Source: Arctopsyche grandis (lineage: Eukaryota; Arthropoda; Insecta; Trichoptera; Hydropsychidae). Taken from it: DNA of 64,000 bases. The translations under genes were made by a program, and so were the position numbers. The stretch is taken from contig NC_135366.1 of assembly GCF_051622035.1 (NCBI RefSeq), positions 2,387,001 through 2,451,000 on the forward strand. Reading direction: 5' to 3'. This document shows, in pieces, positions 1 through 56,704 of this stretch (position 1 is the first letter of the stretch; each line of letters starts with the position of its first letter). The notes beneath the pieces are model-generated. The model was given only the letters and a program-made list of their open reading frames with translations. It made no database searches and had not been told where the DNA came from.

Positions 1-131
1 AGAGTGTATAGACTTGAAAACAACATAATTATTACGAAAAACGTAAAAATTGGGGCACCTGCATACCCCACTTCGGTGAGGGAGAATTAAGCTGTTTATA
101 TTACAAATACCGAGCGAAGCCGGGTAACTAG
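1..131 (+). mobile_element. Helitron 3' end fragment, cut by window start
   Basis: The segment ends with a GAGCGAAGCCGGGT motif followed by CTAG at 128-131 and then T, the usual Helitron 3' terminus (CTRR with T after it). Its body, including the GGGGCACCTGCATACCCC stretch, matches the reverse complement of 13768-13890, so this is another copy of that family. The 5' part lies outside the window. Confidence 0.6.
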
Positions 132-13765: not shown

Positions 13766-14175
13766 TGACCCGACTTCGCTCGGTATTTGTAATATAAACA
13801 GCTTAACCCTCCCTCACTGAAGTGGGGTATGCAAGTGCCCCAATTTTTACGTTTTTCGTAATAACTATGTGGTTTTCAAAGCTATACACCCTATATTTCT
13901 TGTATTCCTAGAATGAACTACAAGAAATTTATTTTAATAGATTTTGTATGATTTAGAAAGGGGTTAAATCGTAAAAAAATACATTTATACATTTCTACGT
14001 TCCAAAATATGGTTTAAAGGCGGTAGCGATAAGTCATGTTTTTGACTGTTCGCTTACATATTCTTGTTGATCGATGAATCAATGCGAGAGAAAGAGACAG
14101 CTATATTTTTGTAAGCTATTGTATTCGTCGCTTTTGGCGGGTGGCTATTGAGTCATGCAGTTGCCTGTTGGCCTT
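13766..14175 (-). mobile_element. Minus-strand Helitron fragment with direct-repeat copy 2
   Basis: On the minus strand the repeat body (13805-14175) runs into ATACCGAGCGAAGTCGGGTC and an ACACTAA terminus near 13768, resembling the Helitron 3' end at 1-131. The 5' end was not identified. A copy of the body alone lies 270 bp to the left. Confidence 0.6.
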
Positions 14176-14576: not shown

Positions 14577-15524
14577 AAACGGATCACTGATGAGATTCCT
14601 ATAGAACGGGGCGTCAGGCAAGGATGCATCCTATCACCTACTCTTTTTAACACCTACACCGAATCCATCTTCCACGATGCTCTCCAAGAGGCGGAGGGCA
14701 TCAAGGTGGGCGGCGAGACGATCACCAATATAAGATATGCTGATGACACGGCACTAGTCGCTGAAAATTTAGCAGACCTGCAAACATCTCTAGACCGTGT
14801 ACATCAAGAAAGCAATCGAAGAGGTCTGCGCATAAATCTAAAGAAAACAAAATTTATGATAGTAGATAGAATGCAAACAGACACCGGGAATCTAACCTTG
14901 GATGGAGAGGTGATAGAAAGAGTAAAAAGATTCAAATACCTGGGTACCTGGCTGAATGAAGAGATGGACCCAGATGAAGATCTAAAAATCCGCATCGAGA
15001 TGGCTAGAACAGCATTTGTAAAAATGAAGGCGGCCCTTACAAACAAGCATCTCAATCTTCATACGCGGTTGAGATTCGCGAAGAGCTACGTCTGGACAGT
15101 ATTACTACACGGATGTGAGACGTGGACTCTGAAAACCAAGATGATCAGCCGCATTGAAGCTTTTGAGATGTGGGTCTATAGGCGTATGCTGAAGATTCCG
15201 TGGACCAAAAAGATATCAAACGAAGCTGTCCTCGGCATGATGGGGAGAGGCAGGGAACTTGTTTCTGTCATCAAGCGGAGAAAGATGGAGTACCTCGGAC
15301 ACATGATACGGGGTCCAAAATACGAATTTCTCCGTTTGATAACCATGGGGAAAATAGAAGGAAAAAAATGGATTGGCAGGAAAAAGTTATCTTGGCTTCG
15401 AAACATGCGCATGTGGACCGATATGAGCGCCGAAGAGCTGTTCCGAGCCGCTGAAGACCGATGCGGATATATTCAAATAATCGACGAGGTGGTCGCCAAC
15501 GTCCGGATGCGGACAAGGCATTAA
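14577..15524 (+). pseudogene. 5'-truncated LINE reverse transcriptase
   Basis: An open frame of about 315 codons ending at TAA 15522-15524 encodes the C-terminal half of a non-LTR retrotransposon polymerase. RGVRQGCILSPTLFN begins near 14610 (RT motif), IRYADDTALVAE near 14733 is the catalytic YADD box, FKYLGTWL follows, then LLHGCETWTL and a tail with RRMLKIPW. The endonuclease domain and first RT motifs are missing: sequence 5' of 14577 is unrelated AT-rich DNA, the usual result of incomplete reverse transcription. An AAGAAGAAG tail follows the stop. The frame is unbroken, so the insertion is probably young. It is not a functional gene. Confidence 0.88.
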
Positions 15525-18313: not shown

Positions 18314-21100
18314 AATTTGAAAGTCAATTTAAACACGTCCTTATTTACATAGCTTAGGCTTAGGCCTGGGCCAAAATGCACTCTGGCTGACTCGAATAGT
18401 ATCCATCTCTACACATTAATTTAGGATCACATTGGTTCTGAAAGGTTAACATGCCAAAAATATCTTATTTATACTGACAGCTCATACTGCCCATGTATGT
18501 ATATGTATATATATATAAATCAAATCGTATGTATGAGTCATATTATTTATACTACATACTTGCATACTAGCGCATCGCTACAAGAAACAACGATAGCAAG
18601 AGATAGCTCAAATAAGCACAATGTCATGTCGTATGATGTCATGTCTACCCTCAAAGTGTCACTATATCCAGACATCTTTTCCGATATCGGCACTCAAATA
18701 AAACCCGCCTGTGATAAGCTATTCTTTGACGTAATTTATTGACATATTTTCGTAATTGACGTAAAATTTCCGTTCTTGCAAACATTGACGTTATGTAGTC
18801 CGTTCCGCAACTACACATAGTCGAATAATAAAATAGGATAGTCTCAAAAGAGTGTCACCGATAATTTAATTGCGCGCGAATGCCAAATCTGAAAGCGCAT
18901 ACATATATGGCAATTTTTCTATTTAAATATGCATTTTTGCGCAACGGAAATTTACAAGCGCATTTCAACCGATATTTGAAAATATTTGTACGCATTTTGA
19001 AATCTCCAATCCAAAATGGACATGGAATGTCGACACGTTTACACCTGCTTTGTTTTCGAGGACTAATTAATTTCGTGAAGCACATTGTTTTAATTAATAA
19101 TTATGGTAGTAATATTTATTTAAAAATATATTCCTGAGAAGATTTTATGATTGACAAGCAAACGAATTCATCGGTTTCGCCTTGCGATCAGGTTATTTGA
19201 ATTTGAATATTATTGTAATATTATACAAGACGGCTTTAACTCATAAAAGTTTTTTTTTCCGACAAAACAGTGGGTCAATGCTTATAATAAAAAATATAAT
19301 ATATTCGAACAGGCTCATCAATGAACAGATTAAAATTCGATCGTTTAAATGAATTAAATTACAATATATTTTATTTCGATATTGTGCGTTTGTTTCATTT
19401 GAAATTTAATTAAATTTTCGTTAATTGTTAATGTAATTATTTCTAAATGTGCAGTTGCTGCAATTTATTCATGAGAATTGTTATGAAATAACTCAATCGT
19501 TTTCCGTGTCGATATTATGGATTATTTAAATGAAAAAAATATTGTAATATTTATTATGAAAAAAATAAAAAAGTGAAAATATCATTTTGAAAATTTCTAA
19601 TTCTAGTATTTATATGAAGGGTCATATGAAAGTGTTAGATAATTATATTTATGACGTATTTTTTTTATTTCTTTCCTCGCTTTTATAACATCGTAAATTA
19701 CATATACGTTTATTTTCTTGTTGGAGTTATATATTTAAAAATAATAATTTAATCTTACTTTAAAGATGTATTTGAAAAAGGTTAACTATAAATAGTGATT
19801 TATAGTTTGTTTTACCAGGCTTCACTCAGTATTTTTAATATAAACAGCGTAAACATGGTGAATCTAATAGTAAATATTAATTTGTTTTTTTATTCAATTT
19901 ATTTGAATCGAAAAAAAAATCGACTCGTTCTCATAGAATTTTTGAATGGTTTACAAAATTCCCAACCAAAGATATATACATACTTACATACAAAGTCTCT
20001 TTCGAAATTATATATTAGATGGGTCATCCTGGCTAGTCTTTTTTTAAATCGAAACTTAAAAAGTACATAATATTAATGAAATTTATTTTTCATACACTTA
20101 GTAAATCTCATTTTTACTAACCTCTTATTGAGGATAAACATTTTCAAAAATACGTTAGTTGAATAAAACAAACAATCCTAACCTTTCGGGTCGATATTAA
20201 ATTAAAAATTATTTTTTCTTATTGTATGTTTATTCCAAATAGAGAAATATTATTTTGTTTTTTAAATCAAATTGGGTCATAGCAAAATGAACACAAATAA
20301 TATAAAACAAAACAGTACATTATAATAATAATAAACAAACATAGTATATACACACAGTAACATAGAACGCTAAACATAAATACATACACATATAGACAAA
20401 TATTTGTACACATAATTAAAAATAAATACAAAAAATAACAGAAGAAATAAGAAAGACAATCAAGAAAAATGAATATATTATATAATTAGACTTTGGAATA
20501 CAAACATCGTTTTCCCACGATGATAGGAATAAAATTAGTTTAAAGACTCAACATAGATATATAATTAGTATTATGGAACCATCCCTAGTGAATACTTTTT
20601 AGCAAATATTTGAAAAAACTAATAGAAAACATTTAAAAACACTACTCATGTGACCTAGCTCTATTACGCCAAACTACTTATGAACACATATCCGAGTATA
20701 TTATCCTATGAAACTTTTATACACATTTTATTTCTGATTTATCAACACAATGGTCCAAATTTTGTGAATAAACTGTGTGTGCCCTAAAAAAAATAAATAT
20801 ACCAAAAATATTAACATCACAAAAAATTAAATGAAAAATAATGCATCGACACCCCTAATATACGAGTCGTTAAAAAATGTCACATGCCATACATATTCAT
20901 ATTAGTTTCGCCACTGTTATCCCAATTTTGCTTAATAAAATGTAGTCTTGTTGCAATATTTTTATCGTGCATTTTGCAAGTCGTTGACAACTGACCTTTA
21001 TCGACGATATTTCTAACCGTTTTTAAAAATCCTAATTCATATATTTCCCAATTTATGTAGTTTTCCTTCGTTTCGTGGGTCCATCGAATTTGAATACATT
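18314..21100. other. Long AT-rich intergenic stretch, no gene seen
   Basis: No domain-bearing frame. 19795-19860 holds a diverged minus-strand Helitron 3'-end motif (CCAGGCTTCACTCAGTATTT). 20280-20480 is A-rich. Regulatory DNA for the Tweedle genes could lie toward the right end. Confidence 0.4.
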
Positions 21101-27839: not shown

Positions 27840-48369
<20,530 letters not shown>

Positions 48370-51362: not shown

Positions 51363-53886
51363 TCTAATCTATAATTTGGAAAGAGACTTTGTATGTATGT
51401 ATGTATCCTTGGTCGTCGTCGTCGTCTTCGTCGTCCGTAGATCGGTGACGTCATCGAACACGTGATTCGATTTTTTTTTTTTTTCGATCCATGGGCGCCG
51501 ATTTTTTTTTTCGTTTCAATGGATTCACCCCCGCGGGGGCGCAAGGCGAGTAGCTTCATGGGGCCCCGCCAGGGGCGCCACAAGGGGCGCAGCCCCGAAG
51601 GGGGCCCGGGGGGCGCAGCCCCGTGGGGCCCCAGCCTCATGGGGCGCAGCCCCATGGGGCTCAAAAGGGGGCGCCACAAGGGGCGCAGCCCCGTGGGGCC
51701 CCGAAGGGGGCCCGGGAGGCCCAGCCTCATGGGGCGCAGCCCCATGGGGCTCAAAAGGGGGCGCCACAAGGGGCACAGCCCCGTGGGGCCCCAGCCTCAT
51801 GGGGCGCAGCCCCATGGGGCTCAAAAGGGGGCGCCACAAGGGGCGCAGCCCCGTGGGGCCCCGAAGGGGGCCCGGGGGGCCCAGCCTCATGGGGCGTAGC
51901 CCCATGGGGCTCAAAAGGGGGCGCCACAAGGGGCGCAGCCCCGTGGGGCCCCGAAGGGGGCCCGGGGGGCCCAGCCTCATGGGGCGTAGCCCCATGGGGC
52001 TCAAAAGGGGGCGCCACAAGGGGCGCAGCCCCGTGGGGCCCCGAAGGGGGCCCGGGGGGCCCAGCCTCATGGGGCGCAAGCCCTAATAGGCATTAACTAA
52101 GGGGGGCGAAGCCCTAGACGACAATTAATCATGGGGGCGCGGAGGGGCGAAGCCCTAAAAGGCAACTGATCATGGGGGCGAAGCCTTAGACGGCATTTAA
52201 TCATGGGGGCGCGGAGGGGCGAAGCCCTAAAAGGCATTAACTAAGGGGGGCGAAGCCCTAAACGGCAATTAATCTTGGGGGCGCGGGGGGCGAAGCCCTA
52301 AAAGGCAACTGATCATGGGGGCGAAGCCCTAGACGGCATTTAACCATGGGGGCGCGGAGGGGCGAAGCCCTAAAAGGCATTAACTAAGGGGGGCGAAGCC
52401 CTAAACGGCAATTAATCTTGGGGTCGCGGGGGGCGAAGCCCTAAAAGGCATTAACTAAGGGGGGCGAAGCCCTAGACGGCATTTAATCATGGGGGTGCGG
52501 AGGGGCGAAGCCCTAAAAGGCATTAACTAAGGGGGGCGAAGCCCTAAACGGCAATTAATCTTGGGGGCGTGGGGGGCGAAGCCCTAAAAGGCAACTGATC
52601 ATGGGGGCGAAGCCTTGGACGGCATTTAATCATGGGGACGTGGAGGGGCGAAGCCCCAAAAGGCATTAGTTAAGGGGGGCGAAGCCCTAGACGGCAATTA
52701 ACCATGGGGAAGTGGAGGGGCGAAGCCCTTATCGGCAACTGATCATGGGGGCGAAGCCCTAGACGGCATTTAATCATGGGGGCGCGGAGGGGCGAAGCCC
52801 TAAAAGGCATTAACTAAGGGGGGCGAAGCCCTAAACGGCAATTAATCTTGGGGGCGCGGGGGGCGAAGCCCTAAAAGGCAACTGATCATGGGGGCGAAGC
52901 CCTAGACGGCATTTAACCATGGGGGCGCGGAGGGGCGAAGCCCTAAAAGGCATTAACTAAGGGGGGCGAAGCCCTAAACGGCAATTAATCTTGGGGGCGC
53001 GGGGGGCGAAGCCCTAAAAGGCATTAACTAAGGGGGGCGAAGCCCTAAACGGCAATTAACCTTTGGGGCGCGGGGGGCGAAGCCCTAAAAGGCATTAACT
53101 TAGGGGGGCGAAGCCCTAGACGGCTTTTAATCATGGGGGCGCGGAGGGGCGAAGCCCTAAAAGGCAACTGATCATGGGGGCGAAGCCTTAGACGGCATTT
53201 AATCATGGGGGCGCGGAGGGGCGAAGCCCTAAAAGGCAACTGATCATGGGGGCGAAGCCTTAGACGGCATTTAATCATGGGGGCGCGGGGGGCGAAGCCC
53301 TAAAAGGCATTAACTAAGGGGGGCGAAGCCCTAGACGGCATTTAATCATGGGGGTGCGGAGGGGCGAAGCCCTAAAAGGCATTAACTAAGGGGGGCGAAG
53401 CCCTAAACGGCAATTAATCTTTGGGGCGCGGGGGGCGAAGCCCTAAAAGGCATTAACTTAGGGGGGCGAAGCCCTAGACGGCTTTTAATCATGGGGGCGA
53501 AGCCCTAAAAGGCAACTGATCATGGGGGCGAAGCCCTAAGCGGCAATTGCTCATGGGGCGTGGAGGGGCGAAGCCCTAGAAGGCAAAGGCTCAGGGGGGC
53601 GCCGAGGGCGAAGCCCTAGAAGGCAAAAAAAAATTTTGATTTTTTTTTTTGATTTTTTAAAAATTTTTTTTTGATTTTTTTTTTATTTTTTTTTTATTTT
53701 TTTTTTTGATTTTTTTTTTATTTTTTTTTTATTTTTTTTTTTTATTTTTTTTTTATTTTTTTTTTATTTTTTTTTTTAAATTTTTAAATTTTTTTTTTAT
53801 TTTTTTTTTTTTTTAATTAAATTAGCTTAGTCATGTTTAAGCGGTTTATATTATAAACACTGAGCGAAGCCGGGTAATACAGCTAG
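51363..53886 (+). mobile_element. Helitron-like element 1 with GC-rich arrays
   Basis: Starts TCTAATCTATAATTTGG after A and ends GAGCGAAGCCGGGT...CTAG before T: the A^T insertion and TC...CTRR ends of Helitrons. No Rep/helicase frame. Contents: a GTCGTC run; array A (51535-52080, 90-bp units with AGCCTCATGGGGCGCAGCCC); array B (52081-53620, about forty GGGCGAAGCCC hairpins spaced by TAAAAGGCATTAACTAA-type linkers); a poly-T block (53626-53815); and the 3' end. Open frames through array A persist because the unit is 90 bp; they are not genes. Confidence 0.82.
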
Positions 53887-55166
53887 TACTATATATAAAA
53901 ACGGACTGTCGCTAAATATATTTGTATATTTGTATATTTGTATATTTGTATGTGACGGACGATCAACCATCAACCAGTATGGGGAACAAAATTTTTTTTT
54001 TTCATATTTTTCATTTTTTTCATATTTTTCATTTTTTTCATTTTTTCAGTTTTTTCATTTTTTTCATTTTTTCAGTTTTTTCATTTTTTTCAGTTTTTCA
54101 GTTTTTTCATTTTTTTCATTTTTTTCATTTTTTTCATTTTTTCAGTTTTTTCATTTTTTCAGTTTTTTCATTTTTTTTATTTTTTCAGTTTTTTCATTTT
54201 TTTCATTTTTTTCATTTTTTTCATTTTTTCAGTTTTTTCATTTTTTTCATTTTTTCAGTTTTTTCATTTTTTTCATTTTTTCAGTTTTTTCATTTTTTTC
54301 ATTTTTTCAGTTTTTTCATTTTTTTCATTTTTTCAGTTTTTTCATTTTTTTCATTTTTGCATCGGGGCGCTGGGGGCGAAGCCCTCGGGATGCCGAAGGC
54401 ATCGGGGGCGCTGGGGGCGAAGCCCCCAGGGTGCCGAAGGCATCCGGGGTGCTGGGGGCGCCGGAGGCGTCGGCGGCGCTGGGGGCGAAGCCCCCGGGGT
54501 GCCGAAGGCATCGGGGGCGCTGGGGGCGCCGGAGGCGTCGGCGGCGCTGGGGGCGAAGCCCCCGGGGTGCCGAAGGCATCGGGGCGCTGGGGGCGAAGCC
54601 CCCGGGGTGCCGAAGGCATCGGGGACGCTGGGGGCGAAGCCCCCGGGGTGCCGAAGGCATCGGGGGGGCTGGGGGCGCCGGAGGCGTCGGCGGCGCTGGG
54701 GGCGAAGCCCCCGGGGTGCCGAAGGCATCGGGGGTGCTGGGGGCGCCGGAGGCGTCGGCGGCGCTGGGGGCGAAGCCCCCGGGGTGCCGAAGGCGTCGGG
54801 GGCGAAGCCCCCGGGGTGCCGAAGGCGTCGGGGGCGAAGCCCCCGGGGTGCCGAAGGCGTCGGGGGCGAAGCCCCCGGGGTGCCGAAGGCGTCGGGGGCG
54901 AAGCCCCCGGGGTGCCGAAGGCGTCGGGGGCGCCGGAGGCGCCGGCGGCGCTGGGGCCGAAGGCCCCGGAGCGACGGAGGCATCGGGGGCAAAGGCGTCA
55001 GGAGGTCGGCGATGCACAAAACGTAGTTCGTAATTCGTAATCACTTCGTAATTCGTGCATCAATTTCTTTCCGAAACCAGTCGATTCAATATCTTTAACT
55101 TTATTTTTATTCGAGTTTCAATTCCTTTTCGAAACCACCCGTTGAAATCAACGGGTCCAACACTAG
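53887..55166 (+). mobile_element. Helitron-like element 2 with T-rich and GC-rich arrays
   Basis: Begins at or within a few bases of TACTATATATAAAAACGG, similar to the 5' end of the element at 6093-6465. Ends with the perfect hairpin CCCGTTGAAATCAACGGG (55138-55155), then TCCAACACTAG before T, a textbook Helitron 3' end. Inside: a TTTTTTCA/TTTTTTCAG array (53990-54357) and array C (54360-55000; core GGGGGCGAAGCCCCCGGGG, with a 32-bp unit toward the right end). Long FFSFF and GAEGIGG frames are artefacts. Confidence 0.78.
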
Positions 55167-56704
55167 TCTAATCTATAATTTGGAAAGAGACTTTGTATGT
55201 ATCCTTGGTCGTCGTCGTCGTCGTCGTCGTCCGTAGATCGGTGACGTCATCGAACACGTGATTCGATTTTTTTTTTTTCGATCCATGGGCGCCGATTTGT
55301 TTTTTTCGATTCAATGGATTCACCCCCGCGGGGGCGCAAGGCGAGTAGCTTCATGGGGTCCCGCCAGGGGCGCCACAAGGGGCGCAGCCCCGTGGGGCCC
55401 CAGCCTCATGGGGCGCAGCCCCATGGGGCTCAAAAGGGGGCGCCACAAGGGGCGCAGCCCCGTGGGGCCCAGCCTCATGGGGCGCAGCCCCATGGGGCTC
55501 AAAAGGGGGCGCCACGAGGGGCGCAGCCCCGTGGGGCCCCGGGGGGGCCCAGCCTCATGGGGCGCAGCCCCATGGGGCTCAAAAGGGGGCGCCACAAGGG
55601 GCGCAGCCCCGTGGGGCCCCGAAGGGGGCCCGGGGGGCCCAGCCTCATGGGGCGCAGCCCCATGGGGCTCAAAAGGGGGCGCCACAAGGGGCGCAGCCCC
55701 GTGGGGCCCCGAAGGGGGCCCGGGGGGCCCAGCCTCATGGGGCGCAGCCCCATGGGGCTCAAAAGGGGGCGCCACAAGGGACGCAGCCCCGTGGGGCTCA
55801 AAAGGGGGCGCCACAAGGGGCGCAGCCCCGTGGGGCCCCGAATGGGGGCCCGGGGGGCCCAGCCTCATGGGGCGCAGCCCCATGGGGCTCAAAAGGGGGC
55901 GCCACATGGGGCGCAGCCCCGTGGGGCCCCGAAGGGGGCCCGGGGGGCCCAGCCTCATGGGGCGCAAGCCCTAATAGGCATTAACTAAGGGGGGCGAAGC
56001 CCTAGACGGCAATTAATCATGGGGGCGCGGAGGGGCGAAGCCCTAAAAGGCAACTGATCATGGGGGCGAAGCCTTAGACGGCATTTAATCATGGGGGCGC
56101 GGAGGGGCGAAGCCCTAAAAGGCATTAACTAAGGGGGGCGAAGCCCTAAACGGCAATTAATCTTGGGGGCGCGGGGGGCGAAGCCCTAGACGGCATTTAA
56201 TCATGGGGGTGCGGAGGGGCGAAGCCCTAAAAGGCATTAACTAAGGGGGGCGAAGCCCGAAACGGCAATTAATCTTGGGGGCGCGGGGGGGAAGCCCTAA
56301 AAGGCATTAACTAAGGGGGGCGAAGCCCTAGACGGCTTTGAATCATGGGGGCGCGGAGGGGCGAAGCCCTAAAAGGCAACTGATCATGGGGGCGAAGCCC
56401 TAGACGGCATTTAATCATGAGGACGTGGAGGGGCGAAGCCCTAGAAGGCAAAGGCTCAGGGGGGTGCCGAGGGCGAAGCCCTAGAAGGCAAAAAAAAAAA
56501 TTTGATTTTTTTTTTGATTTTTTTAAATTTTTTTTTTGATTTTTTTTTTATTTTTTTTTGATTTTTTTTTTATTTATTTTTAATTTTTTTTTAAATTTTT
56601 TTTTTAAATTTTTAAATTTTTTTTTTTTTTTTAATTAAATTAGCTTAGTCATGTTTAAGCGGTTTATATTATAAACACTGAGCGAAGCCGGGTAATACAG
56701 CTAG
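55167..56704 (+). mobile_element. Helitron-like element 3, shorter sister of element 1
   Basis: Starts TCTAATCTATAATTTGG directly after the CTAG of element 2 and ends CTAG at 56701-56704 before T. Same order as element 1: GTCGTC run, 90-bp array A (55325-55970), array B (55970-56490, about a third the length of that in element 1), poly-T (56490-56635), 3' end. The sequence matches element 1 closely outside the copy-number differences. Confidence 0.82.

Follow-up and report, generated by a model that had tools for sequence, protein, structure and literature searches.

What amplifies short GC-rich units inside transposable elements of an otherwise AT-rich genome, and does the folding of the unit contribute? 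A locus of the caddisfly Arctopsyche grandis raises this question. We analysed a window of 64,000 nucleotides (assembly GCF_051622035.1, contig NC_135366.1, positions 2,387,001 to 2,451,000, forward strand), whose numbering is used throughout. At 51363-56704 on the + strand, three elements (E1, E2 and E3) lie end to end and contain five GC-rich tandem arrays, termed A1 and B1 in E1, C in E2, and A3 and B3 in E3. Hairpins with a GNA triloop, all on the top strand, dominate these arrays. Our tentative reading, held at a little under even confidence, is that the arrays are minisatellites of Helitron-like elements expanding via C(GNA)G mini-hairpins on a single-stranded top strand.

The arrays share a GCGNAGC core on one strand

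GCGAAGC occurs 72 times in the window, always on the + strand (shuffle mean 2.71, maximum 7 in 100 shuffles). The three elements hold 70 of these copies, a density of 13.1 per kb as against 0.034 per kb for the two copies in the other 58.7 kb. Arrays B1 (43), B3 (13) and C (12) account for 68/70, and the remaining two lie at 3' ends, at 53864 and 56682. An earlier note, made from the letters of the window, had reported this enrichment in arrays B and C within AT-rich surroundings, and both observations hold (22-46% GC per kb outside the region). It had also named the outcome that would speak against it, namely that GCGAAGC is common in all GC-rich DNA; within the window, four GC-richer stretches elsewhere contain no GCGNAGC at all. 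The count given for the motif is right for arrays B and C, but the interval assigned to it also takes in array A, where GCGAAGC is absent.

Array A has a unit of ~90 bp. Its cores in A1 (51572..52070, +; 12 units) are GGGGC-GCA-GCCCC (9) and variants with a GTA (2) or ACA (1) loop; A3 (55380..55958, +; 14 units) has the same GGGGC-GCA-GCCCC core. Together the two copies contain 22 GCGCAGC (9 in A1 and 13 in A3) and two GCGTAGC, the single deviants being the ACA loop and one stem change. Array B1 (52071..53632, +) is built from a 72-bp double unit (31+41) with 43 GCGAAGC cores, and B3 (55959..56491, +) from 14 units, 13 with an intact GCGAAGC and one with GGGAAGC; each also has a junction unit with the core GCGCAAGC. 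Array C (54359..54990, +) has a GGGC-GAA-GCCC core, mostly as GGGGGCGAAGCCCCC (12), together with TGCC-GAA-GGCA (7) and CGCC-GGA-GGCG (5). The formula GGG(GG)...(CC), previously given for both B and C, suits C, which carries GGGGGCGAAGCCCCC, whereas in the B unit GGG(GG)CGAAGCCC runs into a T. This mostly limits the perfect stem of B to 4 bp: among the B1 GNA hairpins, 39 reach 4 bp or more and 2 reach 5 bp or more.

The main core of every array thus fits GCGNAGC, present within the arrays on one strand only, and the variable position is the one that the mini-hairpin tolerates. According to published work, a GNA or GNNA loop together with two or more G-C pairs makes a mini-hairpin extraordinarily stable, the rule being C(GNA)G, and GCGAAGC melts at 78 C (PMC4686876; this and the other papers are cited for the passages used here). 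The stability ascribed to GCGAAGC in the earlier note is therefore a published one. Candidate mini-hairpin oligonucleotide sequences from the locus are GGGGCGAAGCCC, GGGGCGCAGCCCC and GGGGCTTCGCCCC.

GNA loops prevail regardless of the stem

We counted all hairpins with a triloop and a perfect stem of at least 4 bp. In the five arrays the loop is GNA on the top strand in 108/125 cases, and the bottom-strand type, TNC, is found in 0/125. The GNA share is 16/23 in A1, 39/40 in B1, 25/26 in C, 16/24 in A3 and 12/12 in B3. In the window from 1 to 51360, the corresponding figures are 13/378 for GNA and 24/378 for TNC. Dinucleotide shuffles of each array yield a mean of at most 0.42 GNA hairpins, and none of the 300 shuffles reached the observed count in any array. 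The mini-hairpin core proposed in the earlier note is thus far above chance.

Copies within one array are not independent. When only hairpin sequences that recur within an array are counted, there are 9 array-by-sequence entries (8 distinct), of which 7 (6 distinct) are GNA. These recurring GNA classes use four stems (GGGC, CCCC, TGCC and CGCC), with A, C, G or T at the variable loop position, and all have C before the loop, in agreement, by sequence, with the mini-hairpin rule. The recurring classes with other loops are GCCC-GGG-GGGC (8) and CGCC-AGG-GGCG (2).

As a control, we collected three-unit GGGC-NNN-GCCC arrays from prokaryotes (at least 118 loci, one array per locus, 354 loops). GNA accounts for 46/354 and TNC for 64/354 of these loops, together 31%, which indicates that the stem itself does not force a GNA loop.

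Array B keeps its core while changing length

Units of array B were anchored on the core. Among 28 distinct unit types, the core varies in 1/8 columns and the linker in 18/20 (Fisher p 2e-4); this figure is indicative only, as the unit types are related and the linker count includes columns that separate two unit subtypes. Not counted here were the short last unit, which is a 29th type, and the junction unit where A meets B. Spacing in B1 never exceeds 41 bp, which shows that the anchoring passed over no unit lacking its core, and a search of B1 with two mismatches allowed returned the same 43 units.

The two B arrays differ in length, with 43 units in B1 and 14 in B3. Their first units are one base apart, the same four unit types follow, and the last unit is the same, while the interiors differ; 23 unit types occur in B1 and 12 in B3, with 6 in common. 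The elements that carry them have near-identical ends, which indicates that the B arrays changed length after the copies had split. The suggestion of expansion in the earlier note thus fits this pair.

A possible role for single-stranded intermediates

In Helitrons the top strand is the one with the 3' hairpin and CTAG at its end. We infer that this strand may become single-stranded during rolling-circle transfer or lagging-strand copying, and that C(GNA)G mini-hairpins would then form on it. By stalling or misaligning the polymerase, the hairpins could promote slippage, with units duplicated or lost. Cores with the most stable top-strand hairpin would expand and persist.

Folding predictions differ between the arrays. 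On the top strand, array A (z -14.2 and -11.8) and array C (z -7.7) fold better than shuffled sequences. The DNA energy parameters assign one identical energy to all 64 triloops, with no GNA bonus, and the folding model is therefore blind to a GNA effect.

Several observations weigh against the proposed mechanism. For 501-base pieces of array B, predicted folding does not surpass that of shuffled sequences (z +2.4 and +2.8, from 30 shuffles per piece). The folding of one unit, suggested earlier as a check, gives no support either, since under the same model without a GNA bonus a single array B unit scores z +1.28. On their minus strand, too, A and C beat shuffles, though by less (z -6.4, -9.5 and -3.8). 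Array A contains the recurring non-GNA class GCCC-GGG-GGGC in 8 copies, and one of its cores has mutated to ACA. In the prokaryote control, the 31% of GNA and TNC loops exceeds the 12.5% of even loop use, so part of the GNA preference may be general. The proposal rests on three elements, with arrays in only two members of the E1 family. Arrays B and C look homologous (0/500 shuffles), as perhaps does A (24 and 22 of 500), and the GNA cores may accordingly be one ancestral event copied many times. Finally, unequal crossing-over would account for the length change without hairpins.

The last two points lead to an alternative that we consider possible but somewhat doubtful: an ordinary GC-rich central minisatellite of a Helitron-like or HINE-like element, grown from a chance palindromic seed by unequal exchange and transposition, in which the hairpin has no role. 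Modular, satellite-like central arrays are known in non-autonomous Helentrons (PMC7492417, PMC4067079), and the failure of array B to fold better than shuffles counts in favour of such an origin. The likeness of B and C, which align over 27 columns around GGGGGCGC..GGGGCGAAGCCC with a score of 35, shows how one seed can yield several arrays. The alignment also suggests the passage of an array module from one element family to another. Yet four different stems have the GNA loop and the strand in common, and the array B core is near-invariant amid variable linkers, both of which speak against this alternative. If A, B and C do stem from one seed, the loop rule would represent a single event in the cores, with CCCC-GAA-GGGG, TGCC-GAA-GGCA and CGCC-GGA-GGCG as three further GNA classes.

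G-quadruplexes were considered as another structural explanation and rejected. When loops are limited to 7 nt, neither strand of the five arrays contains a motif; when the limit is raised to 15 nt, A (both strands) and C (+ strand) have motifs and B has none.

Multiplied terminators are an unlikely source of the arrays

To the earlier note the arrays looked like amplified copies of a terminator-like hairpin, and it named the pausing of replication or transfer and multiple termination among their possible roles. On this view they would be multiplied Helitron 3' termination hairpins. The motif that it placed at the 3' ends of E1 and E3 is indeed present: GAGCGAAGCCGGG lies at 53862..53874 (+), 8 nt before CTAG, and again at 56680..56692 (+). 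The GCGAAGC string is thus found in the 3' ends of E1 and E3, as well as in that of another family, and in a reconstructed bat Helitron the 3' hairpin acts as a transposition terminator (PMC4778049).

The likeness between terminus and array is, however, limited to one 8-mer. The 3' motif has only GCGAAGCC in common with arrays B and C, and 111/500 and 45/500 shuffles score as high; with array A there is no significant likeness (450/500 shuffles as high). In E1 the terminal hairpin is weak (z 0.35, no better than shuffles in the model without a GNA bonus). In E2, the 3' hairpin ACCCGTTG-AAAT-CAACGGGT (55137..55156, +), 6 nt before CTAG, is strong (z -3.18) and lacks GCGAAGC. E2 thus has GCGAAGC in its array while ending in another kind of hairpin. 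The earlier note had proposed to look at the arrays of other Helitron families, and had accepted that cores not tracking the terminal motif would speak against it. E2 shows this contrary outcome: its array has the GCGAAGC core and its terminal hairpin does not.

In a search for intrinsic, bacterial-type terminators (a GC stem with a T run immediately after it on the same strand), the + strand had no site and the - strand had 2, compared with a shuffle mean of 15.7. Internal terminators would, moreover, be expected to halt the transfer of the element itself, yet two full-length copies exist. Taken together, amplified copies of a terminator-like hairpin are a very improbable source of the arrays. 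A termination role is unlikely, and the mini-hairpin mechanism needs none.

Comparison with bacterial hairpin arrays

The near-invariance of the B core and the single polarity would also suit putative single-strand landing sites for an HUH Rep-helicase or a host factor, for instance a single-strand binding protein, which would make the arrays a eukaryotic counterpart of bacterial REP/BIME sequences. REP hairpins, which are linked to tyrosine transposases of the HUH type (RAYTs), form GC-rich clusters, and some contain GCGNAGC (PMC2817692). By eye, GCGNAGC is present in 5/27 transposase rows of Table 1 in that paper, with A, C, G or T at the variable position and an ambiguous stem register. However, BIME modules pair inverted units, whereas the GCGNAGC cores of the arrays here lie on one strand only. 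REPs also have a GT(A/G)G head, which was not searched for here, and are bacterial. No Rep protein was recognised among the five window open reading frames (ORFs) scanned. We give binding sites of this kind little credence.

A broader version is also unlikely, if marginally less so. It holds that the GCGNAGC mini-hairpin arrays of Helitron-like elements in this insect, restricted to the transferred strand, are functional modules. Unrelated arrays would converge on one loop rule since the hairpins act on single-stranded DNA in transfer, by folding, nuclease protection or Rep binding, as a eukaryotic counterpart of the HUH-linked bacterial arrays.

Anatomy of the three abutting elements

E1 (51363..53886, +) is Helitron-like, running from TCTAATC to CAGCTAG with A as its 5' flank; no transposase gene was recognised in it. 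E3 (55167..56704, +) is a second copy of the same family with a shorter array B and T as its 3' flank. Both start with TCTAATCTATAATTTGG and end with GAGCGAAGCCGGGTAATACAGCTAG. In the 5' part, including the first array A bases, 220/223 aligned columns are identical (16 further columns contain gaps), and the final 71 bases match throughout (71/71). Both have the 5' TC and 3' CTAG expected of the Helitron TC...CTRR ends. E2 (53887..55166, +) belongs to a different family, judged by its 3' end. Its 3' terminus is CTAG; the 5' limit, placed by abutment alone, reads TACTATAT and lacks the 5' TC feature. We read E1 and E3 as recent copies of one non-autonomous Helitron-like transposon, and E2, of a second family, as abutting between them.

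In E1 and E3 array A is followed by array B and a T-rich tract (53634..53815 and 56501..56641, both +), and in E2 a (TTTTTTTCA)n T-rich tract (53990..54358, +) precedes array C. All three elements thus have a long T-rich tract on the same strand beside the GC-rich hairpin array.

No spacer is present at 53886/53887 or 55166/55167, where CTAG is directly followed by the next element. Helitrons insert between A and T without duplicating the target. The trio as a whole is flanked by A and T, but G|T is found at both inner junctions, and independent insertion at AT sites therefore fails to explain the abutment; an empty site was not seen. Read-through or tandem copying might have produced the arrangement.

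Among known systems, the closest in layout are DINE-1/HINE elements and Cg_HINE of the oyster, which are likewise of rolling-circle type, non-coding and modular, with a central tandem array and simple repeats (PMC4067079, PMC7492417). E1 and E3 differ from Helentrons, described as preferring TT, in their TC...CTAG ends and A|T outer flanks, which are of the Helitron type; HINE and non-autonomous Helentrons are characterised by inverted repeats near the termini and by T-rich insertion sites. Their arrays and that of E2 differ from HINE in being GC-rich in an AT-rich genome and in their same-strand GNA hairpins; the oyster HINE paper does not contain the term GC-rich (PMC7492417). Unlike Helraiser and Helibat, the locus has no recognised Rep-helicase, and the 3' motif of E1 and E3 forms only a weak hairpin; the Helraiser paper (PMC4778049) nowhere uses the word tandem. 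With d(GCGAAGC) and related GNA mini-hairpins, the exact core, the GNA rule and the C-G closing pair are alike (PMC4686876). There the sequence is a short synthetic laboratory oligonucleotide (PMC4686876, PMC10527192, in the passages used), whereas here it is present in dozens of copies in a genomic array.

In the open-licence literature, GCGAAGC or GNA arrays in Helitrons were not described in the titles and abstract beginnings among the matches listed. The string gcgaagcc and the word Helitron co-occur in a fungal genome paper and in the REP paper. The passages used of PMC6544945, PMC5714489 and PMC10527192 contain nothing decisive.

Other features of the window and database searches

An array-less, decayed relative of the E1 family lies at 19808..20019 (-), so the family can exist without arrays. 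The 3' end of another Helitron-like family, ACCGAGCGAAGCCGGGTAACTAG, is located at 87..131 (+) and includes one of the two outside GCGAAGC copies (114-120). A related 3' end, ACCGAGCGAAGTCGGGT, at 13768..13806 (-) has a mutated core and no array in the ~300 bases before it. Save for small changes, both have GTTTATATTA...ACCGAGCGAAG(C/T)CGGGT in common with E1 and E3, and the preceding sequence differs.

The rest of the window contains two DUF243 genes, a retroelement reverse transcriptase fragment (Pfam RVT_1, 14706-15524) and an unrelated 26-bp tandem repeat, TTTCTGATTGGCTGTCGTCAAAGTCA, in 3.5 copies (39276-39367). For one of the DUF243 proteins, the moth Tuta absoluta supplies the best named relative, and proteins of beetles, other moths and flies score only slightly lower (best 120 of 349 matches; 8000 candidates scored).

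A protein search with the array A reading frame scored 816 candidates and returned 0 matches at E 0.001, and the long array ORFs were therefore not treated as genes; two of the array ORFs have no Pfam match. Rfam gave 0 matches at the gathering threshold. The one plasmid match, a Streptomyces record with 64% identity over 9% of the query, was read as compositional. Viral contigs contained no exact match to the 3' end, to array A or to the 5' end. Five viral contigs (L001-L005) have two-unit GCGAAGC arrays, each with 2-3 closely spaced GGGCGAAGCCC hairpins, and L004 also repeats GTGGCGAAGCCAC. By eye, nothing beyond the GGGCGAAGCCC hairpins is alike, and these contigs were rejected as relatives of the elements. 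A single viral match to the array B pattern (L006) appears by eye to be coding phage DNA and was read as chance.

Implications for Helitron arrays

Single natural occurrences of GCGAAGC have been discussed in phage replication origins. The locus described here offers a genomic setting in which the mini-hairpin sequence is found by the dozen. Helitron-like elements with central minisatellites are a known kind; a repeated unit of same-strand GNA mini-hairpins was not found described in the open-licence literature listed. The literature passages cited here offer no explanation for the frequency of central tandem arrays in Helitrons and their kin. The loop rule and its strand polarity provide a direct sequence test of single-stranded intermediates. 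If the arrays grow via such intermediates, loops that the chemistry of single-stranded DNA favours would be expected on the transferred strand only, in every family.

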